Shown piece by piece: positions 8,395 through 18,506 of a stretch of 64,000 bases of DNA. The notes beneath the pieces are model-generated. The model was not told the origin of the DNA. It saw only the letters and a list, made by a program, of their open reading frames with translations, and did no database searches. The stretch's first letter is position 1, and every line of letters starts with the position of its first letter. Source of the stretch: Actinotalea soli (GTDB lineage Bacteria; Actinomycetota; Actinomycetes; Actinomycetales; Cellulomonadaceae). The stretch spans positions 1 through 64,000 of the forward strand of contig NZ_JAGEMK010000004.1 of assembly GCF_017565425.1 (NCBI RefSeq). Reading direction: 5' to 3'. The position numbers and the translations under genes are program-made.

Positions 8395-10248
8395 ATGAGT
8401 GATGTCGACCCGCTCGAGGTCCTTGCCGCACGGGCGGGCGGCCCCCGGTCGGCGCGTCGGCTGACCCGTCTGCTCGTCCGGTCGACCCAGCAGGTGTGGC
8501 GGGCCGGGCCTCGCGTGCTCCTCGCGGTGCTGGGCCTGCAGGTGCTCGCCGCGGCAGCCCTCGCGGCGCAGATCCTCGTCGTCGAGCGGGTGCTCACGGT
8601 GATCCTCGACGTCGCCGACGACCCCGACGCCCTGCCCCGGCTGTGGCTGCCGGTCGCGCTGCTCGCCCTGGTCACCGCGATCACGAGCCTCTCCGGGGCC
8701 GTGCAGCAGAACGTCGAGCGGCTGCTGGGCGAGAAGGTCGCGGCCGCCATGTGGCGCGACGTGCTGCGCACCGCGACCGGCGTGAGCCTGCGCAACTTCG
8801 AGGAGCCGACCTTCTTCGACCGCCTGCAGCGGGTCGAGACCAACGCGCTGTTCCGCCCCTACCAGGTCACCCAGGGGCTGGTGATCATGCTCGGGGCGGT
8901 CTTCGGCAGCCTCGGCGTGGGCACCGTGCTCGTGACCCTGCACCCCGCGCTGCTCCCCCTGCTCGTGCTCGGTGGGGCGCCGCTCGTGCTGACCAGCCGC
9001 CGCGAGAGCCGCCTCGAGTTCGACTTCGCGGTCGAGCAGACCCCGGCGCTACGGCTGCGCGAGTACCTCATCGGCCTGCAGACCGGGCGGGACGAGGCCG
9101 CCGAGGTGCGCGCCTTCGCCCTGGCCCGTGAGCTCGGCCGACGGATCGACCTCCTGTACGGCACCTACCTCAAGGCCCTGCGCGGGCACATCCTGCGCCG
9201 CTCGCGGCTCAGCGCCCTGGGCAACCTCGGGGCCGCCGTGGCCCTGGCCGCCACCCTCGTCGTGATGGTGTGGTTGGTGGCGGAGGGAGAGATCACCGTC
9301 GCCTCGGCCGGGGCCGCGATCGTCGCGATCCGCATGCTCGCCCACCAGGTGCAGGCCCTGAGCAACGGCATCCGTCTGGTCTTCGAGTCCGGCCTGTTCC
9401 TGGACGACGTCGACGCCTTCCTCACCATGGACCCGGGCCAGGGCGAGCGGGTCGAGGGCCAGCCCGACCCGCCGTCGACCTTCGAGCTGCTCGAGGCCGA
9501 GGACCTCGCCTTCACCTACCCGGGCAGCGAGGCACCCGCCCTCGACGGCGTCACGGTCCGGCTGTGTCGCGGGGAGGTCGTGGCCCTGGTCGGGGAGAAC
9601 GGCTCGGGCAAGACGACCCTGGCCAAGGTGCTCGCGGGCCTGTACCAGCCCACCGGTGGGCAGGTGCTGTGGGACGGGGTCGACGCCCGGCAGTACCGCA
9701 GCGCGGGCCTGCGCGAGCGCATCACGGTGATCTTCCAGGACTTCGTCGAGTACGGCCTGAGCGCGACCGACAACATCGCGATCGGCCGGCCCGACGACGA
9801 GCCCGACCCCGAGCGTGTGCGGCGGGCAGCGGCCGACGCGGGGATCGCCCGGGCCATCGAGTCCCTCCCCGCGGGCTACGACACGATCCTCTCGCGCGAG
9901 TTCCCGGGCGGCCGCGACCTCTCGGGCGGGCAGTGGCAGCGCGTGGCCCTGGCCCGGGCCTTCTACCGCGACGCACCGCTGGTCATCCTCGACGAGCCGA
10001 CCGCCGCCATGGACCCCCGCGCCGAGCACGAGCTCTTCGCCTCGCTGCGCTCGATGCTCGCGGGCCGCAGCGCGCTCGTGGTCTCCCACCGGTTCTCGAC
10101 CGTGCGCACCGCCGACCACATCTACGTCATGGACTCGGGGCGGGTCGCCGAGCACGGCACCCACACCGAGCTCATGGCCGCCGACGGCGTGTACGCCGAC
10201 CTGTTCCGGCTCCAGGCCGCCGCCTACATGCCCGACGCCGAGGCCTGA
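8395..10248 (+). CDS. ABC exporter, permease-ATPase fusion, of the RiPP cluster
   Basis: Half-transporter of 617 residues expected to work as a homodimer. The first ~330 residues hold the transmembrane helices. The ATPase follows, with Walker A GENGSGKTT near residue 400, signature LSGGQWQRVALARAF near 508, and Walker B LVILDEPTAA near 528. There is no C39 peptidase domain, so it does not remove leaders itself. This matches the D-type exporters of lasso-peptide clusters. The ATG at 8395 is the only reasonable start, yet no Shine-Dalgarno is visible. An inverted repeat ACCAC-TTT-GTGGT (8368-8380) lies just upstream. It converges with the kinase gene after a 21-base gap. Confidence 0.85.
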   Translation: MSDVDPLEVLAARAGGPRSARRLTRLLVRSTQQVWRAGPRVLLAVLGLQVLAAAALAAQILVVERVLTVILDVADDPDALPRLWLPVALLALVTAITSLSGAVQQNVERLLGEKVAAAMWRDVLRTATGVSLRNFEEPTFFDRLQRVETNALFRPYQVTQGLVIMLGAVFGSLGVGTVLVTLHPALLPLLVLGGAPLVLTSRRESRLEFDFAVEQTPALRLREYLIGLQTGRDEAAEVRAFALARELGRRIDLLYGTYLKALRGHILRRSRLSALGNLGAAVALAATLVVMVWLVAEGEITVASAGAAIVAIRMLAHQVQALSNGIRLVFESGLFLDDVDAFLTMDPGQGERVEGQPDPPSTFELLEAEDLAFTYPGSEAPALDGVTVRLCRGEVVALVGENGSGKTTLAKVLAGLYQPTGGQVLWDGVDARQYRSAGLRERITVIFQDFVEYGLSATDNIAIGRPDDEPDPERVRRAAADAGIARAIESLPAGYDTILSREFPGGRDLSGGQWQRVALARAFYRDAPLVILDEPTAAMDPRAEHELFASLRSMLAGRSALVVSHRFSTVRTADHIYVMDSGRVAEHGTHTELMAADGVYADLFRLQAAAYMPDAEA

Positions 10249-10269: not shown

Positions 10270-11241
10270 TCAGACCGGGGTGGGGACGGGCGCGAGCTCG
10301 GGGATCCGGGACCGCAGGGCCGCGGCGATGCTCGGGTCGAAGGGCGGCCCCCACGGCACGTGCGCGTGGTAGACGGGCACCTGGGCGACGACGGCCGCGA
10401 GGTGAGCGAGGTGGCCGCGCTGGACGGCAGGGTCCTTCCAGCCGAGCAGTCGCGGGAAGGACAGCAGGTCGAGCAGCGCCTCCCGGGGCTCCTGCCGCAC
10501 GACCTTGACGTGCTTGCGTCGGCGGTCCGGGTACGGCACGACGATCGCCGCGAGCGGCAGGTCGTCCTCGACCTCGGTGCTCAGGCTGAGGATCTGGCGC
10601 TGGTCGGCGCTCGTCCGACGCCCCGGGGCGCCGGTGGAGAACAGCTCGACCAGGGTGTCGGCCCCCTTGCGCAGCCGGAGCTCGGTCGCGCCGAGGCGGA
10701 CCGTCGGGCGACCGGCACCGGTCTCGACGCACAGCACGTCGTCCGTCACGAGGGAGGCGCCGTCGGCGCACATCAGGGTCGCCATGGTCGACTTGCCGCC
10801 CCCGGAGGGCCCGACGAAGGCCAGGGCCCGCCCGTCGACCTCGACCGCGCTGGCGTGCAGCACGGCCCGGCCGCGGCGGTACAGCTGGAAGGCCAGCATC
10901 GCCCCGGTCGTGAGCACCACGGCCACCCCCGGGTCGGCCCCCTCGACCACGTGGACCGTGACCTCGGCGAGGTCGGCCGAGACCTCGAACTCGCAGGTGC
11001 CCGTGAACCGCAGCAGCACGGTGCCGTCGGGGCGCTCGTAGAAGGCGTAGGAGACGACGTCGTCCCACTCGAGCTCGAGGAGCACGGTCCCGTCGACCGG
11101 CTCCGCCTGCTCGGCGCGGGAGCGGGGAGCACCCCACCGGACGGTCACGTCGGGCCGGGTGCCGTGCGGCACCGGGCGGCTCTGGTGGAGCGGGAACTCC
11201 GAGGAGACGACGAGGCCGTAGAGCCGTTGCAGGTCGGTCAT
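10270..11241 (-). CDS. HprK-like serine kinase of the RiPP cluster
   Basis: Protein of 323 residues with the HPr kinase-type P-loop GPSGGGKST near residues 144-152, then a segment (SLVTDDVLCVE) typical of the nucleotide fold of this family. Family knowledge: HprK homologues inside lasso-peptide clusters (paeninodin type) phosphorylate the C-terminal Ser of the precursor. The precursor here also ends in Ser. True HPr kinases are longer and act in carbon control, and no HPr gene is nearby. The ATG at 11241 overlaps the B2 stop by 4 bases, so the kinase is made together with the leader protease. The frame extends further upstream but without support. Confidence 0.8.
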   Translation of the reverse strand: MTDLQRLYGLVVSSEFPLHQSRPVPHGTRPDVTVRWGAPRSRAEQAEPVDGTVLLELEWDDVVSYAFYERPDGTVLLRFTGTCEFEVSADLAEVTVHVVEGADPGVAVVLTTGAMLAFQLYRRGRAVLHASAVEVDGRALAFVGPSGGGKSTMATLMCADGASLVTDDVLCVETGAGRPTVRLGATELRLRKGADTLVELFSTGAPGRRTSADQRQILSLSTEVEDDLPLAAIVVPYPDRRRKHVKVVRQEPREALLDLLSFPRLLGWKDPAVQRGHLAHLAAVVAQVPVYHAHVPWGPPFDPSIAAALRSRIPELAPVPTPV

Positions 11242-11723
11242 GCCGCACCTCCGGGGACAGGGGACGCAAGGACGTGGAACTCGGACCGGGTGGGGTCCAG
11301 GCTCGCGCCGTCGACCTCGATCCAGGCGTGGGCCTGGACCGCTCCGTCGATCTTGGCCACGCCCACCCGCAGCACGGGGTCGCGGTGGCGCAGCAGGTGG
11401 GCGAGGAGCAGGGACTGACGCAGGCAGGTGCCGTTGAAGGGGCCGCGGTCCAGGACGCGCAGGGCCAGGTCGCACCGTTCGGCGTCGCGCGGGCTGAGGA
11501 GGTCCCAGCCGTCGGTGTCCTCGGGGACTGCCCCGTCGAGCCCTGGCACCACCGAGGTGGGGGCCTCGGCATCGAGGCGCAGGGCTGCTCCGGCGAGCCG
11601 GCTGGCCGTCGGGAGCCGCAGGGTGCGGATCGCGAGCTCGGCAGCGGTCGCCGCGAGCGCGGCGTGCAGCAGGACGGCCCAGCGGCGCGGCCCGAGGCCG
11701 ACGACGGTGCGCAGCGTGCTCAT
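11238..11723 (-). CDS. lasso-peptide B2-type leader protease (transglutaminase-like)
   Basis: Cysteine protease of 161 residues of the transglutaminase-like B2 family, which cleaves the leader off lasso-type precursors when guided by a B1/RRE protein. The expected triad is visible: Cys100 in FNGTCLRQSLLLAHLLR, His132 in AHAWIEVDG, and Asp143 in SLDPTRSEF. The length is usual for a stand-alone B2. The N-terminus has hydrophobic helices, also common in the family. It sits downstream of the precursor gene on the same strand, separated by two strong hairpins, and overlaps the kinase gene by 4 bases. Confidence 0.88.
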   Translation of the reverse strand: MSTLRTVVGLGPRRWAVLLHAALAATAAELAIRTLRLPTASRLAGAALRLDAEAPTSVVPGLDGAVPEDTDGWDLLSPRDAERCDLALRVLDRGPFNGTCLRQSLLLAHLLRHRDPVLRVGVAKIDGAVQAHAWIEVDGASLDPTRSEFHVLASPVPGGAA

Positions 11724-11753
11724 GCGGGCCCCTCTCGGCCGGGTGCGGGACGT

Positions 11754-11813
11754 CCGAGGCGCCCCGGGGTCCCGGGGCGCCTCGGGGGACCGATGCCGGG
11801 ATCAGGTCCCGGC
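11754..11813 (-). terminator. two tandem hairpins between precursor and B2 genes
   Basis: Reading from the precursor gene, the first stem pairs TGCCGGGA with TCCCGGCA (11794-11813, 5-base loop). The second is a perfect 14-bp stem (arms 11754-11767 and 11772-11785, 4-base loop). No T-run follows either, so they are more likely attenuator or RNA-stability structures than full terminators. This would give much more precursor mRNA than processing-enzyme mRNA. Confidence 0.6.
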
Positions 11814-11827
11814 ACCGGCCCGCGGCA

Positions 11828-11947
11828 TCAGGAGATGCCGCCGCCGTGGCCGGGCTTCGGGCCCTTGCCCTTGCCCTTGCCGCGACCGTGGAGCGTCAGG
11901 TCGGCGACCGAACCGACCTTGGTGATCGAAGGCTTCTCGTACCCCAT
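11828..11947 (-). CDS. RiPP precursor peptide with lasso-type leader and Gly/Lys-rich core
   Basis: A 39-codon gene. The leader (residues 1-19, beginning MGYEKPSITKVG) matches the lasso leader pattern Y-x2-P-x-(L/I)-x3-G-x5-T exactly: Tyr3, Pro6, Ile8, Gly12, Thr18. If Thr18 is at -2, as usual, the 20-residue core starts at His20 and reads HGRGKGKG, then KGPKPG, then HGGGIS. It has nine Gly, four Lys, one Arg, two His, two Pro and a C-terminal Ser. It has no Asp or Glu, so the acceptor for a lasso macrolactam is missing. GGGAG lies 6 bases before the ATG. The gene is on the same strand as B2 and the kinase, with B1 nearby. The leader identification is strong; the final product is unknown. Confidence 0.85.
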   Translation of the reverse strand: MGYEKPSITKVGSVADLTLHGRGKGKGKGPKPGHGGGIS

Positions 11948-11995
11948 GTTGGACTCCCATTCGACGTGCGACGCCTCTGTACGCCGCATGGTCGG

Positions 11996-12047
11996 ATGCT
12001 AGGGCGATACCGCCGGGTTCTGTGTCAAAGCGGACATTTTTCACCCG
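11996..12047 (-). promoter_or_regulatory. promoter region of the precursor gene with CGGGTGA element
   Basis: Read on the minus strand: CGGGTGA (12041-12047), then 12 bases, TTGACA (12023-12028), a 21-base spacer, and TAGCAT (11996-12001). The ATG lies about 48 bases further on. The -35 and -10 are good matches but the spacer is longer than the normal 17 bases, suggesting activator dependence. The same architecture recurs at 13695-13745 and 37075-37124. Confidence 0.5.
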
Positions 12048-12090
12048 ATCGGTCTTCGCCCGGTCTCGACGCCGACCTCTCCGCCTGCGT

Positions 12091-13254
12091 CTACTGCCGG
12101 GCGACCGCCTCGAGGTACGCGCGACGGGCTCGAAGGTCACCGTCCGCCTCGTGCAGCGGGTTGGGCAGGTCGTCCTCGGGGCGCCTCGTGTCCCGGCGCT
12201 CCCGGAGATGGCCGGCTGCCTCGACGATCAGGGCCCAGGCGCTCGACGCCGTCCCCGTCCGCACGCTCGTGAAGCGGGTGCGGCCGGTGCGCCCGTCGAC
12301 GCCCCGCGGCGGCACGCTCCCCCACCGGTCCAGGAGACGCAGCGCCGCGCGCCACAGAGCGCCGCGCCGCGACCGCCACGGCAGCGCCGGGCACCGGTCC
12401 GACCCGAGCACGAGCGACGCCCGGTCGAGGGCGACCCGCACCAGCATGTCCACCCGCGCCGCCTCCGCCCGTCGAACGACCTCCTCGACGTCCTCGACCG
12501 CCGCCCAGGCGCACTCGACGTCCTTGAGCCACAGCAGCCGGTAGGCCCCGGAGTGGGTCGCGTGGTAGGCCAGGTGGAGCAGCGTGTCGACCCGGTCGAG
12601 GGTCGGCACCGTCACCGACCCGACCCGCACCGGTCGGCGGCGGGCGAGGACCTCATGGGTGCTCCAGCGGAGCCGACGGCGCAGGGTCGCGTCGTTCACG
12701 AGGTGCCAGTGGAGGTCGAGGACCGTTCCCCGCGGGAGGAAGAACGTCAGCTCGGCTCGCTCCTGGCGGTTGATCAGGTCCCAGTTGAGGTCGATCTGCT
12801 CGGCGCCCAGCCCGTGCAGCAGGTCGATGACGTCAGCGAGACGGTGCGGGTCGACGAGCAGGTCGAGGTCCAGGTAGCCCCTCATGTCGGGGGACGGCCA
12901 CAGGTCCGCGGCGACCACCGGGCCCTTGACCACGGCCCACGCGACGCCAGCCCGGTCGAGGGCCGCAGCCAGAGGTCCGAGCTCGGCCAAGGTCGCGAGG
13001 TGGCGCACCATCTGCTCGGTGCGCTGGGCCCCCAGGGCCGCAGCGAGCTCGCGTGGTGGCTCCTCGAGCGCGCCGAGGTAGCGCGCCACCGCCGGGGCCA
13101 GGCGATGGGCGTCCACCACCTCGAGGACCTCCTCGGCCGGCAGCGACCGGACCGCTGCGTCGAGGAGGGGCGCCGCCCCGGCCGCGAGGTCGTGCAGCCC
13201 GACGGCCGCCACGAGGGTCTGCACGACGGGATCCTTGGGTGGTCGAGCGGTCAC
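12091..13254 (-). CDS. nucleotidyltransferase-like protein of the RiPP cluster
   Basis: Protein of 387 residues resembling the 'uncharacterised nucleotidyltransferase' family often found in lasso-type RiPP clusters. Visible features are VVKGPVVAADLWP (Lys110-Gly111) and, about 18 residues later, RGYLDLDLLV (Asp129 and Asp131), the usual metal-binding D-x-D of the polymerase-beta nucleotidyltransferase fold. The remainder is mostly helical. Its substrate is unknown; transfer of a nucleotidyl group to the peptide or a carrier is only an inference. GTG start at 13254. It lies upstream of the precursor on the same strand, but the promoter at 11996-12047 separates them. Confidence 0.75.
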   Translation of the reverse strand: MTARPPKDPVVQTLVAAVGLHDLAAGAAPLLDAAVRSLPAEEVLEVVDAHRLAPAVARYLGALEEPPRELAAALGAQRTEQMVRHLATLAELGPLAAALDRAGVAWAVVKGPVVAADLWPSPDMRGYLDLDLLVDPHRLADVIDLLHGLGAEQIDLNWDLINRQERAELTFFLPRGTVLDLHWHLVNDATLRRRLRWSTHEVLARRRPVRVGSVTVPTLDRVDTLLHLAYHATHSGAYRLLWLKDVECAWAAVEDVEEVVRRAEAARVDMLVRVALDRASLVLGSDRCPALPWRSRRGALWRAALRLLDRWGSVPPRGVDGRTGRTRFTSVRTGTASSAWALIVEAAGHLRERRDTRRPEDDLPNPLHEADGDLRARRAYLEAVARQ

Positions 13255-13325
13255 CGGTCCTCCTCAGGCCAGCCCCCGGACGACGTCAGCGGGCAGGGTC
13301 AGCCTAGGAGTGCCGCAGGGCAGCG

Positions 13326-13351
13326 GACAGGGTGAAACCGAACCGCTACGC
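13326..13351 (+). promoter_or_regulatory. possible leaderless promoter for the B1 gene
   Basis: TACGCT (13346-13351), a TAnnnT-type -10, ends 7 bases before the ATG at 13359, and no Shine-Dalgarno is present. This is the arrangement of leaderless actinobacterial transcripts. Upstream lies CGGACA followed by GGGTGAAA, related to elements at the other island promoters. Confidence 0.4.
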
Positions 13352-13358
13352 TCCGGCC

Positions 13359-13610
13359 ATGAAGCTCCGTACCGAGGACGTGACGTGGCAGGAGATCGAC
13401 GGCGAGCTCGTCATCCTGGACCTCGCCCAGTCCAGCTACCTCACCACCAACAAGACCGGCGCCTACCTCGCGAACCTGCTCCTCGAGGAGCAGACCGAGG
13501 AGAGCCTCACCGCAGCACTGGCGGCCGAGTACGAGCTGTCGACCGAGAGTGCCGCGACGGACGTCCGGGCGTTCCTCGAGCAGCTCCGTGAGCAGGCCCT
13601 CCTCGCCTGA
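13359..13610 (+). CDS. PqqD/B1-type RiPP recognition element protein
   Basis: Stand-alone RRE protein of 83 residues. It has the compact winged-helix pattern of the PqqD family: beta strands (VTWQEIDGELVILDLAQSSYLTTNKTGAYLANLL) followed by helices with an acidic C-terminus. In lasso systems B1 binds the Tyr and Pro of the leader and delivers the precursor to B2. The in-frame GTG at 13332 would add nine residues, but ATG at 13359 gives the family-typical N-terminus (MKLRTEDV) and fits a leaderless promoter. It faces the same way as the following glycosyltransferase, with a 179-base gap holding a separate promoter. Confidence 0.85.
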   Translation: MKLRTEDVTWQEIDGELVILDLAQSSYLTTNKTGAYLANLLLEEQTEESLTAALAAEYELSTESAATDVRAFLEQLREQALLA

Positions 13611-13789: not shown

Positions 13790-15934
13790 GTGCACGCTCG
13801 GACCAGGGGGCCCGCGGCCACGGGCCAGCCGGACACGGACAGCGCAACCGGTGCGACGACGGACGGCGCCGCGCAGGCCCCGCTCCACGTCGTGGTCGTG
13901 ACGTACAACAGCACCGCCCCTCTCGCCGGGCTCCTGCCGACGCTGGACGCAGGCCTGGTGGGCACGCGATGGCGGATGACCGTGGTCGACAACGCCTCCG
14001 CCGACGGCACCGTGGACATGGTGCGTGCGGCCCGCCCTGAGGCGCAGGTCATCGAGATGGGGCGCAACGCGGGCTACTCCGCCGCGATCAACGCCGCAGC
14101 AGCGACCGCCACCCCCGACGAGCACCTTCTCGTCCTCAACCCCGACGTCCGGCTGCTCCCCGGCTGCGGGGAGGCGCTCCTCGCGACCCTGGACGACCCC
14201 GCCGTCGGCGTCGCCGTCCCGCGACTGCTCGACGCAGCCGGACGGACGTGGCCCTCGCTGCGGCACGCGCCGTCCGTCACCCGTGCCTGGGCAGAGGCCC
14301 TGCTCGGCGGGAACCGCGCCGCACGTCACGGGCTGAGCGAGCTCATCCCCGACGGGCCGACCTACGCCTCGCCCGCGGACGTCGACTGGGCCACGGGAGC
14401 CGTGCTGGCCATCTCGGCCCGGTGCCGCGCTGCGGTCGGCGACTGGGACGAGTCCTTCTTCCTGTACTCCGAGGAGGTCGACTACTGCGCTCGGGTGCGC
14501 GACCACGGCTTCGTCGTGCGCTACGAGCCCGCGGCCGTCGCCGAGCACGACAGCGGGCCCTACGGCCCGAACCTCACCCTCTGGCGCCTCGTGGTCCGCA
14601 ACCGCATCGTGCACTTCGCTCGACGCCACCCGGGCCTCCGGGCCCATGCCTTCCGTGCGGGGACCTTCGTCGGGCAGGCGTTGCGGGCCCCCCGGAGCGC
14701 GGCCGGCCGCGCCGGGGCCGCGGAGGCGTGGTCGACCTCGCTGCGCGAGGTCCGCGAACCCGGCGTGATCTGGTTCGCCGCCCAGGACTGGTGGTACCAC
14801 AACCGTGCCCACTCCGACTTCCAGCTCATGCAGGAGGTGGCGCGCGGGCGCCCCGTCCTGCTGGTCAACAGCCTGGGTCTCCGGATGCCCCGGCGCGGGG
14901 TCAGCAGCAACCCCGGCCGCCGCATCAGCCGCAAGCTGCGGAGCATGGCCAAGCTCGTACGGCGTCCCGTCCCGGGCCTGCCGCAGTACCACGTGATGAC
15001 GCCCGTGATGATCCCGGCCTACGGGTCCGGGATCGCCGCGCGCCTCAACGCCTGGTCGGTGCGTCAGCAGGTCCGGATCGTCTCCCGCCTGATCGGGGTC
15101 GGACAGCGGCCCTACGTCGCCGCGACGATCCCCACCGCGTGGCCCGTGCTGCGCCCGCTGCGGCGGAGCGCCCTCGTCTACAACCGGTCGGACCAGCACT
15201 CCGCCTTCCCGGAGGCCGATCAGCAGCGGATCGCCGAGCTCGAGCACGCCCTGATGCGGCACGCCGACCGGGTGCTGTACGTGAGCCACGAGCTGATGCG
15301 TGCGGACGGCGACGCCGTGGGCGACCGAGGCGTCTTCTTGGGCCACGGTGTCGACCTGGACCACTTCTCGCGCGGACCCGGCGCGGGCGGCAGCCACGGA
15401 GCCAGGCCCGCCGAGCTGGCCGACGTACCCGGCCCGATCATGGGGTTCTTCGGCGGCATCGACGACTACGTGGTCGATCTGGAGCTCCTGGCGAGCACCG
15501 CGCGCGCCCTGCCGGAGGTCAGCATGGTGCTGGTCGGTGACGCGACCTGCCCCCTCGACGACCTCCTCGCCCTGCCCAACGTGCACTGGCTCGGGTTCCA
15601 GCCGTACAGCCGCATCCCCGAGCTCGGACGGACCTTCGACGTCGCCCTGATGCCGTGGCTCGACAACGAGTGGATCCGGTTCGCCAACCCGATCAAGCTC
15701 AAGGAGTACCTGGCCCTGGGGCTCCCCGTCGTCTCGACGCACTACCCCGAGGTCGAGCACGAGGACGGCACGGTCGCCGTCGCCAGGACACCCGAGGAGT
15801 TCGCCGCGCTGGTTCGCGAAGCCCTCGACGACCCGCCCGACCCCGCCGCGCTGCGCGCGGCGGTGGAGTCCTCGTCGTGGAGCTCTCGGGCCCAGGACCT
15901 CATGAACATCGCGACCACGGCCCGGAGGGCATGA
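13790..15934 (+). CDS. two-domain glycosyltransferase (GT2 + TuaH/GT4-like)
   Basis: Fusion of 714 residues. Residues ~25-270 are a GT2 domain of the rhamnosyltransferase type (VVVTYNS, VVDNASADGT, NPDVRL, then a WATGAV segment and FFLYSEEVDYCARV). Residues ~320-705 resemble TuaH-like GT-B transferases, beginning WFAAQDWWYHNRAHSDFQLM and ending in the donor-binding part (LKEYLALGLPVVSTHYPEVE). It probably adds two successive sugars to a lipid-linked repeat unit at the membrane. The GTG start is preceded by GCGAGGAG. The asnB start lies one base after its stop, so the two form a coupled operon. Confidence 0.85.
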   Translation: MHARTRGPAATGQPDTDSATGATTDGAAQAPLHVVVVTYNSTAPLAGLLPTLDAGLVGTRWRMTVVDNASADGTVDMVRAARPEAQVIEMGRNAGYSAAINAAAATATPDEHLLVLNPDVRLLPGCGEALLATLDDPAVGVAVPRLLDAAGRTWPSLRHAPSVTRAWAEALLGGNRAARHGLSELIPDGPTYASPADVDWATGAVLAISARCRAAVGDWDESFFLYSEEVDYCARVRDHGFVVRYEPAAVAEHDSGPYGPNLTLWRLVVRNRIVHFARRHPGLRAHAFRAGTFVGQALRAPRSAAGRAGAAEAWSTSLREVREPGVIWFAAQDWWYHNRAHSDFQLMQEVARGRPVLLVNSLGLRMPRRGVSSNPGRRISRKLRSMAKLVRRPVPGLPQYHVMTPVMIPAYGSGIAARLNAWSVRQQVRIVSRLIGVGQRPYVAATIPTAWPVLRPLRRSALVYNRSDQHSAFPEADQQRIAELEHALMRHADRVLYVSHELMRADGDAVGDRGVFLGHGVDLDHFSRGPGAGGSHGARPAELADVPGPIMGFFGGIDDYVVDLELLASTARALPEVSMVLVGDATCPLDDLLALPNVHWLGFQPYSRIPELGRTFDVALMPWLDNEWIRFANPIKLKEYLALGLPVVSTHYPEVEHEDGTVAVARTPEEFAALVREALDDPPDPAALRAAVESSSWSSRAQDLMNIATTARRA

Positions 15935-15935
15935 C

Positions 15936-17888
15936 ATGTGCGGCATCGCCGGAGTACGGCACCTCGACGGACGACCCACCTCGGCCGCGGGCCTCGAAGC
16001 CATGGCTGCGACCCTGGTCCACCGCGGCCCGGACGCCGTGGGGTACTGGCAGGGCGACGGGGTGGGCTTCGCCCACACCCGTCTGTCGATCATCGACCTG
16101 CCCAGCTCGGCCCAGCCCATGGCCTCCCCCGACGGGCGGTGGCAGCTCGTCTTCAACGGCGAGATCTTCAACTACCGCGAGCTGCGCGAGGAGCTCGGTG
16201 GTGCACTGCGCACGCAGGGCGACACCGAGGTCGTGCTGACGGGTGTCGCGCGGCACGGCATCGGCTACGTCGACCGGCTCCGCGGCCAGTTCGCCTTCGT
16301 CGCCCACGACACCGTCGACGGGACGACCTACATGGTCAGGGACCGCCTCGGGGTGCTGCCGCTCTTCTACAGCTTCGCCGGAGGCACCCTGGCCTTCGCC
16401 TCGGAGCCCAAGGCCATCTTCGCCGGCACCGACCTCGAGCCCGAGGTGGACCACGCGAGCCTCGGCGCCTACCTCCGCGGTCGGTCGGTCCCCGCACCGC
16501 ACACGCTCTTCGCGGGGGTGCACAAGCTCCTGCCCGGACACTGGGCACGGCTCGACAGGGACGGGACCCTGACCCACCACCAGTACTGGTCCCTCCCTGC
16601 CCCGGACCCCGTCCGCGACTGGACTCCCGCGACCGCGGTGGACGCCGTCGAGCAGGCCGTGCGTGCCGGAGTCTCCTCAGCCCTCGTCGCCGACGTCCCC
16701 GTCGGTGCCTACCTCAGCGGCGGTGTCGACAGCAGCCTCATCGCCGCGGTGGTGTCGGACCTGCGGCACGGCGGGGAGGTCTCGACCTTCTCCGCCGGCT
16801 TCGGCGACCCGCGCTACGACGAGCTGCCCTGGGCCCGGCGGGTCAGCGCGGAGCTCGGCACCACCCATCACGAGGTCGAGGTCCGCCCGGACGACTTCGA
16901 GGGCCTGTGGAAGACGTTGACCTGGCACCGTGACGCCCCGGTGTCCGAGCCCGCCGACATCGCCGTCTTCCGGCTCGCACAGCTGGCGCGCACCAAGGTC
17001 AAGGTGGTGCTCTCGGGCGAGGGCGGGGACGAGCTGTTCGCGGGCTACCCGAAGTACCGCATGGCCCGCGCGCTGCAGGCCACCGACGTGGTCCCGGGGG
17101 CGTTGCGGGCCCAGGCGGCTGCCCTCCTCGAACGCCGGATCCCCGGCGCGGGCGCCCGGGCTCGGATCGCCCTGCGGGCGGCGGGGGCGCGCACCGAGGC
17201 CGAGCGCTTCGCCACGTGGTTCGCCCCCTTCACGACGGCCGACCGTGCCGCCCTGCTCCAGGGGACCGTCGAGCACCCCGACCACCTCCTGCCCGGGCAC
17301 CAGCGCGACGTCATCGGGCGGATGCTCGCGGCGGACGTGCGCAGCTGGTTGCCGGACAACCTGCTCGAGCGTGGGGACCGGATGTCGATGGCAGCCTCGC
17401 TCGAGCTGCGGCCACCTCTCCTCGACCACCGTCTCGTGGAGCTGGCCTTCCGGCTGCCGTCCTCGGTGAAGATGCGCGGGGGCACGACGAAGTGGGCCCT
17501 CAAGGAGGTGGCTCGGCGCTACCTCCCCGACGAGGTCGTCGACCGGAAGAAGGTCGGCTTCCGCGTCCCCCTCGACTCCTGGTTCCGGACCGGGTTGCGC
17601 GAGTCGGTCTGGGACCGTCTGACCGGACCGGAGTCCTTCGTCTCCCAGGCCCTCGACAAGGACGAGGTGCGCGCCCTGCTCGAGCGGCACGAGTCCGGCC
17701 GGTTCAACGAGGAGTCGAAGATCTGGACCCTCATGTCCCTCGAGGTCTGGCACGAGACGTTCTTCCGGCCGACCGTGGTGCCGACCGACCACCCGGACAC
17801 CATCACCACGGCAGGCACGCGGAGCGCGACCCGGGCGACGTCCGAGGCGCTTCCCCCGGGCACCGCGGCTGACCAGCAGAGCAGCTGA
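15936..17888 (+). CDS. asnB: glutamine-dependent asparagine synthetase-like amidotransferase
   Basis: Protein of 650 residues. It has an N-terminal class II glutaminase domain beginning MCGIAGV (nucleophile Cys2) and a C-terminal ATP-pyrophosphatase domain with SGGVDSS near residue 260 and LSGEGGDELFAGYPKY. The ~30-residue tail is low complexity. Lasso cyclases belong to this superfamily but generally lack a working glutaminase Cys. With Cys2 kept, amidation of a small molecule or a sugar carboxylate in the polysaccharide is the simpler reading. It is coupled to the glycosyltransferase, not to B1/B2. Participation in peptide maturation is possible but unproven. Confidence 0.8.
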   Translation: MCGIAGVRHLDGRPTSAAGLEAMAATLVHRGPDAVGYWQGDGVGFAHTRLSIIDLPSSAQPMASPDGRWQLVFNGEIFNYRELREELGGALRTQGDTEVVLTGVARHGIGYVDRLRGQFAFVAHDTVDGTTYMVRDRLGVLPLFYSFAGGTLAFASEPKAIFAGTDLEPEVDHASLGAYLRGRSVPAPHTLFAGVHKLLPGHWARLDRDGTLTHHQYWSLPAPDPVRDWTPATAVDAVEQAVRAGVSSALVADVPVGAYLSGGVDSSLIAAVVSDLRHGGEVSTFSAGFGDPRYDELPWARRVSAELGTTHHEVEVRPDDFEGLWKTLTWHRDAPVSEPADIAVFRLAQLARTKVKVVLSGEGGDELFAGYPKYRMARALQATDVVPGALRAQAAALLERRIPGAGARARIALRAAGARTEAERFATWFAPFTTADRAALLQGTVEHPDHLLPGHQRDVIGRMLAADVRSWLPDNLLERGDRMSMAASLELRPPLLDHRLVELAFRLPSSVKMRGGTTKWALKEVARRYLPDEVVDRKKVGFRVPLDSWFRTGLRESVWDRLTGPESFVSQALDKDEVRALLERHESGRFNEESKIWTLMSLEVWHETFFRPTVVPTDHPDTITTAGTRSATRATSEALPPGTAADQQSS

Positions 17889-17910
17889 GACAGCGGGGAA
17901 CCGGCATCCT

Positions 17911-17948
17911 GCTGGGTGGCTGACCTCCGCGGAGGTCAGCCACCCAGC
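17911..17948. terminator. 38-base perfect palindrome, bidirectional terminator
   Basis: A perfect palindrome centred on CCGCGG begins and ends with GCTGGGTGGC/GCCACCCAGC. It lies 22 bases after the asnB stop and 21 bases before the end of the convergent acyltransferase gene, where a two-way terminator is expected. No T-run is present. An 11-base direct repeat, CAGCGGGGAAC (17891-17901 and 17948-17958), brackets it. Confidence 0.7.
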
Positions 17949-17969
17949 AGCGGGGAACGGCGTGAGGGC

Positions 17970-18506
17970 TCAGCGCGCGTCGTCGTGGTGCCCGTCCAGG
18001 CCTGCCCGCCACCCCACCACGCGTGCCGGGCTTCCGACAGCGATGCATCCCGCAGGGAGCGACCGGGAGACCACCGAGCCGGCCCCGACCACAGCCCCGT
18101 CACCGACGGTGACCCCCGGCAGGACGACGACGCGCGCGCCGAGCCACACGTCCGAGCCGATCACCACGTCCCGCTCGACCTTCGGCTGGTCCATGATCGG
18201 CACGCCGTGCCTGGTCCCGTAGTTGCTGGCCGTGATGAAGACCTCCGGCGCGAGCAGCGCGTTGTCCCCCAGCACGATCCGGCCCGTCGAGTCCCCCGCC
18301 CACAGGCAGGACCGCTCACCGACGTGGACGTCGTGACCGAGGCTGATCCGCTCGCCGTTGCGCAGGCTCGCCGTGGGCGACATCCGCAGGCCCGGACCAG
18401 CGCTCATGCGGCGCCTGGGCTCGACGTGGGCGTAGGAGTAGAAGCGGGCGACCTTGAGCAGGTGGACGAGCAGGCGCGGGCGGAGCACCGCCGGGAGCCG
18501 ACTCAT
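17970..18506 (-). CDS. hexapeptide-repeat acyltransferase
   Basis: Protein of 178 residues with left-handed beta-helix repeats: ISLGHDVHVGERSCLWAG, IVLGDNALLAPEVFITAS, then VVIGSDVWLGARVVVLPGVTVGDGAVVGAGSVVS. This is the pattern of WcaF/maltose-acetyltransferase-like O-acetyltransferases. It likely acetylates a sugar of the polysaccharide. The ATG overlaps the upstream GT2 stop by 4 bases. It is last gene of the minus-strand operon running from 23071. Confidence 0.85.
   Translation of the reverse strand: MSRLPAVLRPRLLVHLLKVARFYSYAHVEPRRRMSAGPGLRMSPTASLRNGERISLGHDVHVGERSCLWAGDSTGRIVLGDNALLAPEVFITASNYGTRHGVPIMDQPKVERDVVIGSDVWLGARVVVLPGVTVGDGAVVGAGSVVSRSLPAGCIAVGSPARVVGWRAGLDGHHDDAR

Follow-up and report, generated by a model that had tools for sequence, protein, structure and literature searches.

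A lasso-leader peptide cluster of Actinotalea soli without a lasso cyclase or an acidic ring residue

Introduction

What does a biosynthetic cluster make when its precursor peptide carries the leader of a lasso peptide and its core lacks the residue from which a lasso ring is closed? The question is raised by a stretch of 64,000 nucleotides from Actinotalea soli (contig NZ_JAGEMK010000004.1, positions 1–64,000, hereafter the window), which contains a short precursor gene (A) close to genes for a leader peptidase (B2), a discrete recognition element for ribosomally synthesized and post-translationally modified peptides (RiPPs; the element is B1, or RRE for RiPP recognition element), an HprK-like kinase, a nucleotidyltransferase and an ABC exporter. 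An earlier note on positions 10270–13610 had proposed that the lasso chassis of leader, RRE and protease is reused here for another product. We find that the lasso cyclase gene (C), whose absence the note had not recorded, is missing as well, and we argue that the locus is probably a phospho-lasso (paeninodin-like) cluster of Actinomycetota that has lost C and now makes a linear, cationic, phosphorylated peptide for export. The part of this proposal that can be read from the DNA comprises the gene content, the intact motifs, the lack of a cyclase and of an acceptor residue, the terminal Ser and the conservation in a second species.

Results and Discussion

A lasso leader in front of a core without an acceptor

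The features on which the argument turns are the following.

11828–11947, minus strand: precursor gene A, 39 aa, with the leader at 11891–11947 (residues 1–19), the core at 11831–11890 (residues 20–39) and a stop codon
11864–11881, minus strand: in-frame Gly-Lys hexamer repeat GGCAAG, three copies (five in Actinotalea sp. C106)
11724–11827: gap of 104 bp between A and B2, the usual site of C in relatives, with no cyclase remnant

The product of the open reading frame (ORF) at 11828–11947, whose ATG has a GGGAG element immediately on its 5' side, reads MGYEKPSITKVGSVADLTL/HGRGKGKGKGPKPGHGGGIS. Its leader, YEKPSITKVGSVADLT, fits the pattern Y3-x2-P6-x-I8-x3-G12-x5-T18 exactly, as the earlier note had stated, and the precursor, with the YxxP motif and the Thr at −2 of lasso leaders, matches the NCBIfam family NF033521 (lasso_leader_L3) at E 6.6e-7, with 29 bits for a cut-off of 19. 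In a scan of the whole genome (G000) it is the sole match above that cut-off; a second one falls within a 1041-aa open frame and scores 11.9 bits. The description of the core as Gly/Lys-rich, strongly basic and free of acidic residues also holds: residues His20 to Ser39 include no Asp or Glu, have a net charge of +5 and are 45% Gly, and the last residue is Ser39. The acceptor expected at core position 7–9 of a lasso peptide is thus lacking and, because there is no Asp or Glu elsewhere in the core either, this core is, as judged from its sequence, unable to form the lasso isopeptide. The locus holds no second precursor, and in particular no ORF with an acidic ring residue, the finding that the earlier note had thought capable of overturning its view; the window contains two more weak matches to a leader-like pattern, both of them short frames and, in our judgement, due to chance.

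Absence of the lasso cyclase

A profile built from 12 cyclases of relatives gave no match at E ≤ 0.001 in the A. soli genome or in a sister genome taken to be that of Actinotalea sp. C106 (G015). The same profile recovered the cyclases of three out of three control genomes at E 1e-167 to 1e-169, but these cyclases are themselves rows of the profile. Searching with PF00733 (Asn_synthase) at E ≤ 1e-5, which recovered the cyclase of a control genome (G161) at 2.5e-12, returned a single protein in A. soli, the AsnB encoded at 15936–17888, and none in C106. Finally, tblastn with the relatives' cyclases disclosed no remnant at the A–B2 junction: of the 12 matches with E < 0.05, ten lie in AsnB and two are antisense to the B1 gene, the latter stemming from stop-to-stop query frames that run over the B1 gene, and the two matches that overlap 11238–11990 have E values of 6.3 and 9.7. 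Profile, PF00733 and remnant searches agree that C is absent, and this, together with the missing acceptor, supports the earlier note's view of a product other than a lasso peptide. Although the window has B1 and B2, its predicted product is not a lasso peptide, because two defining features, the cyclase and the acceptor, are wanting.

Kinase-bearing relatives retain the cyclase and the acceptor

Loci containing a homologous kinase were collected in two overlapping sets, whose counts are not added: 18 of 221 genomes of the same family, the window's own counted, and 51 loci from named genomes, 49 of which were used, including the two Actinotalea contigs (L127 and L128, weak matches from other phyla, were left out). 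These Actinomycetota kinase lasso clusters (Isoptericola, Luteimicrobium, Jiangella, Georgenia and others) consist of genes homologous to those of the window, with the nucleotidyltransferase and the neighbouring gene mfd in varying positions. A cyclase gene is present in 44 of the 49 loci, that is, in all that are complete enough to tell; in the other five (L078 and L079, which are the Actinotalea contigs, L108, L109 and L126) the contig ends near the kinase, being short or, in one case, beginning there. Among the 40 loci in which all three genes are seen, 38 have C placed between A and B2 (the exceptions are L099 and L118), a count that omits the four of the 44 in which A or B2 is not seen; in L106 and L115, C shares this interval with other cluster genes.

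The search for homologous small ORFs and the comparison of cores that the earlier note had suggested yielded 51 precursors of relatives (49 distinct) after removal of a chance leader match, L087. With positions counted from the second residue after the Thr, every core contains Asp or Glu, which falls at position 7–9 in 44 of the 51 and first at 10 or 13 in the other seven, and net charges range from −6 to +3, as against +5 in the window. Of the 51 cores, 42 terminate in Ser, a point that the earlier note had not made, and eight of the remaining nine in Ser-Arg. Because the window tail KPGHGGGIS resembles the tail of a Jiangella core (SKPGGGGGIS, L092), the window core may have changed only in its ring and loop region. 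Note that the C-holding precursors in L086, L088, L090 and L094 (Georgenia, Oceanitalea), L080 and L099 are among those with a first acidic residue at 10 or 13, and that a start shifted 2 or 5 residues later would put it at 8.

In a midpoint-rooted kinase tree, the window, C106 and A. fermentans form one group (support 100/98), which sits among relatives whose loci, when complete, all include C. The gene mfd, which adjoins the window exporter, is also found within the fetched flanks of seven C-holding loci of other genera (L098, L101, L102, L105, L107, L113 and L114), and the order in one of these, Luteimicrobium L107 (mfd, transferase, exporter, kinase, B2, C, A, B1), is that of the window save for C and the place of the transferase. 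Given the tree and the synteny with mfd and with Luteimicrobium, the simplest reading is that the cyclase was lost at the window site within the Actinotalea lineage.

The other cluster genes and the proposed product

The remaining genes of the cluster are listed below.

About 8398–10248, plus strand: MsbA-like ABC exporter (profile matches; start codon not settled)
10270–11241, minus strand: HprK-like precursor kinase, with Walker A GPSGGGKST, VLHASAV and TDD kept
11238–11723, minus strand: transglutaminase-like B2 leader peptidase, with the Cys/His/Asp motifs TCLR, AHAW and LDP intact
12091–13254, minus strand: NTP_transf_5 nucleotidyltransferase (PF14907, E 4.8e-36)
13359–13610, plus strand: B1, a discrete RRE of the PqqD family (PF05402, E 5.6e-16; NF033530, E 1.8e-14, below its cut-off)

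All six cluster genes are open in the window, and profiles bear out the neighbours named in the earlier note, the exporter lying outside 10270–13610. B2 matches NF033537 with 48.7 bits (cut-off 33) and PF13471; the best NCBIfam matches of the kinase, TIGR04355 and TIGR04352, and its match to PF07475 each score under the respective cut-off. The surroundings, which include an epimerase, a sugar-type nucleotidyltransferase, glycosyltransferases and a hexapeptide acetyltransferase, are consistent with a polysaccharide locus. Note that a scan of genome contigs confirmed no relatives of the nucleotidyltransferase.

Two studies provide precedents. According to PMC9266682, PadeK phosphorylates the C-terminal Ser of a linear precursor, and PsmN has been linked to hexoses on the phosphorylated C-terminal Ser. 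In PMC13381572, a Bacillota lpp cluster (kinase, RRE, NTP transferase and MsbA-like exporter, no cyclase) gives a linear polyphosphorylated peptide (LPP); lpp clusters are often found at capsular polysaccharide loci. In the heterologous host of that study, the NTP transferase made no visible difference and the final product was not identified. On the strength of these precedents and of the matching gene set, we infer the following pathway, whose cleavage, phosphorylation, glycosylation and export steps are all predicted from characterised homologues. B1 would bind the YxxP leader and present the precursor, and the B1-guided kinase, which retains its H, K and DD motifs, would phosphorylate Ser39 at the C-terminus, perhaps repeatedly. 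A sugar or a nucleotide may be put on the Ser39 phosphate by the nucleotidyltransferase; B2 would cleave after Thr18-Leu19, and the ABC protein would export the 20-residue cationic peptide. The exported peptide may act at the cell-surface polysaccharide made from the adjacent locus, although both this link and the biological role are speculative. Among the products envisaged in the earlier note for a reused chassis, the linear, phosphorylated and possibly conjugated peptide is favoured; for a cyclisation by new chemistry, no candidate enzyme was found among the proteins scanned.

How does this pathway relate to known systems? The window has in common with LPP clusters, as described in PMC13381572, a YxxP leader, a discrete RRE, an HprK-like kinase, an NTP transferase, an MsbA-like exporter and a polysaccharide neighbourhood, together with the absence of a cyclase. 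By the same account, however, the leader peptidase of LPP clusters is a SipW-like signal peptidase (SpI), whereas the window encodes a lasso B2, and none of the six cluster genes encodes a SipW-like SpI, no search for one having been made in the rest of the genome. Furthermore, the LPP leader consensus YxxPxVLxHQxIxFETxxS does not fit YEKPSITKVGSVADLT, the LPP phosphosite is core Ser3 in the tested case instead of the proposed C-terminal Ser39, and LPPs were described in 2026 as restricted to Bacillota, while the window host belongs to Actinomycetota. Because of the peptidase and the leader consensus, the window cluster is not, from its sequence, an LPP cluster as published, yet it would work like one. 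With the paeninodin and pseudomycoidin clusters, as presented in PMC9266682, it shares a kinase for a C-terminal Ser, B1 and B2, and in the case of pseudomycoidin also a nucleotidyltransferase gene; those products, however, are macrolactams made with C, and what a threaded macrolactam requires, C and an acceptor, is absent in the window. In the open-licence literature we found no published description of C-less lasso-leader clusters in Actinomycetota, PMC13381572, on Bacillota, being the only relevant report.

A sister species and the alternative readings

Actinotalea sp. C106 has the C-less layout and the core of the window, with five GGCAAG units instead of three. A single contig carries the start of B2 and, after some 100 bp, precursor, transferase and B1 in turn, which leaves no C between B2 and the precursor. 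The precursor DNA is identical at 120 of 120 aligned bases, the two extra repeat units in C106 being the sole difference, whereas its flanks are 87% and 81% identical. Ratios of nonsynonymous to synonymous substitution (dN/dS) between the two species are 0.11 for the exporter, 0.12 for the kinase, 0.22 for B2 (95 codons), 0.35 for B1 and 0.37 for the transferase. These five genes have thus diverged under purifying selection, which speaks against simple decay; C being absent from both species, their divergence most likely postdates the loss of the cyclase.

Two local differences from C106 may be mentioned. The B1 gene (13359–13610) is 97–100% identical over its first 100 or so bases and then 60–70% identical, a mosaic pattern. 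Between B1 and the polysaccharide genes common to C106, the window contains a two-domain glycosyltransferase, AsnB and an acetyltransferase (13790–18506), none of which was found in the 12 kb examined from the C106 contig.

The alternative that survives best, though we consider it unlikely, is a decaying lasso cluster, in which C was lost, the core drifted through repeat slippage and the other genes are on their way out. The loss of both C and the acceptor would fit such a decay, as would the slippage-prone hexamer repeat with its unequal copy number in the two species, the raised dN/dS of B1 and of the transferase, and the situation in A. fermentans described below. It is difficult to reconcile, however, with six open genes, with the catalytic motifs kept in B2 and in the kinase, with the conservation of the precursor DNA including leader and terminal Ser, and with purifying selection on exporter, kinase and B2 in two species that are both without C. 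The earlier note had foreseen that homologues with a conserved acceptor might expose this copy as a decayed outlier; the relatives do carry the acceptor, but a decayed outlier is unlikely, because core and C-less layout recur in a second species and the genes are intact and shaped by purifying selection.

Several points nevertheless weigh against a functional linear-peptide cluster. Evolution is faster in B1 and the transferase (dN/dS around 0.35) than in the other genes, the identity of the precursor could stem from recent recombination instead of constraint, and the C106 assembly is in 660 contigs. In the genome taken to be that of A. fermentans (G003), the exporter and the kinase alone were found, on a 3.2 kb contig, and the searches brought up no B2, transferase or precursor; the C profile gives one weak partial match there (24.8 bits, in a 685-aa frame), and the pattern fits either decay in that species or an assembly gap. 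The mfd synteny is also untidy, since the order varies by genus and even the closest match, L107, has the transferase elsewhere.

Less plausible still, and improbable in our view, is a peptide cyclised or cross-linked by new chemistry, with an enzyme encoded locally or elsewhere. The core does offer two His and several Lys, and enzymes of the polysaccharide-type locus are near at hand; but no extra RiPP-type modifying enzyme is present among the ten window proteins scanned, and for the genes just beyond B1, the sole similarity in the 12 kb examined from the C106 contig is a 30% match of the two-domain glycosyltransferase to another glycosyltransferase. Lastly, AsnB, the sole Asn_synthase protein found in the genome and only 2.3 kb from B1, can be rejected with near certainty as a trans-acting cyclase, given its glutaminase domain (N-terminus MCGIAG), its scores of 446 bits as asparagine synthase (cut-off 267), 473 bits with an exopolysaccharide amidotransferase family (under that cut-off) and 196 bits with the nearest lasso cyclase family (cut-off 525), the absence of a C-profile match at E ≤ 0.001, a C106 genome without an Asn_synthase match, and a core without an acceptor.

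A second C-less cluster and other lasso-leader ORFs

A distant cluster of similar content was found in another family of the same phylum.

L230:5727–8923 and L231:4031–7227: copies of the second C-less cluster in two genomes (G1015 and G1045)

Its order is PqqD-B2-A-kinase-NTP_transf_5-ABC, adjoining an O-antigen ligase (according to Pfam annotation of the G1015 copy), and there is no cyclase in the fetched stretch. In the whole genomes, the C profile reaches about 20 bits and PF00733 30.7 bits (above cut-off), in short partial matches within frames of 394 and 270 aa. The core starts with HGRG like that of the window; it has 42 residues, two Cys and, at position 10, Asp in one genome and Asn in the other. 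This suggests, from sequence comparison, that cyclase-free versions with B2 arose more than once. On a broader and rather doubtful reading, repeated loss of the cyclase in Actinomycetota may have led to a class of B2-processed linear phospho-glycopeptides that would be part of, or bind, surface polysaccharide, the Actinotalea member being a Gly-Lys repeat polycation, with slippage of the hexamer adjusting its length. The second cluster lends support to the proposed linear product of the window, but this support is limited: the two genomes are 99% identical over 13 kb and count as one case, and the core has no terminal Ser and carries an Asp at position 20.

A survey at class and phylum level comprised 92 cores of the leader family, excluding the window and the previously read L055 and L070, with the core start set by rule at the second residue after the first Thr in match residues 14–22; Asp or Glu occurs at 7–9 in 66 of them and elsewhere in eight, and the other 18 have none. 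Lasso-leader-family ORFs with acid-free cores of Gly/Trp repeats were seen in L149, L153, L154, L181, L187–L189, L192–L195, L198, L202, L204, L208 and L209, three of them extending past the fetched stretch. We set these peptides aside as parallels: the eight such loci with flanks (L220–L223 and L226–L229, L223 being a 4.5 kb contig) show no profile match for B1, B2, C, kinase or transferase, and a literature search on them brought up nothing relevant. Cationic Gly-rich precursors with a core free of acidic residues also adjoin B1 in L225:7457–11006, L239:7925–9146 and L224:7821–10418, those of L225 and L239 being Tyr/Arg-rich. In L225 and L224, precursor and B1 are separated by a 624-aa frame that carries an SGGxD motif and that Pfam assigns, in L225, to Asn_synthase; L239 has no such frame there, and its genome, 87% complete, gives no Asn_synthase match.

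Implications

The A. soli cluster appears to have been caught after it dropped the defining step of the lasso pathway, with relatives that still have that step. Whether leader, RRE, B2 and kinase were what selection preserved, with a knot that could be dispensed with, thereby becomes a testable question. If the proposal is true, the linear phosphopeptide idea put forward in 2026 extends beyond Bacillota, with a different peptidase, and genome-mining rules that demand a cyclase or an acidic ring residue would overlook such clusters.

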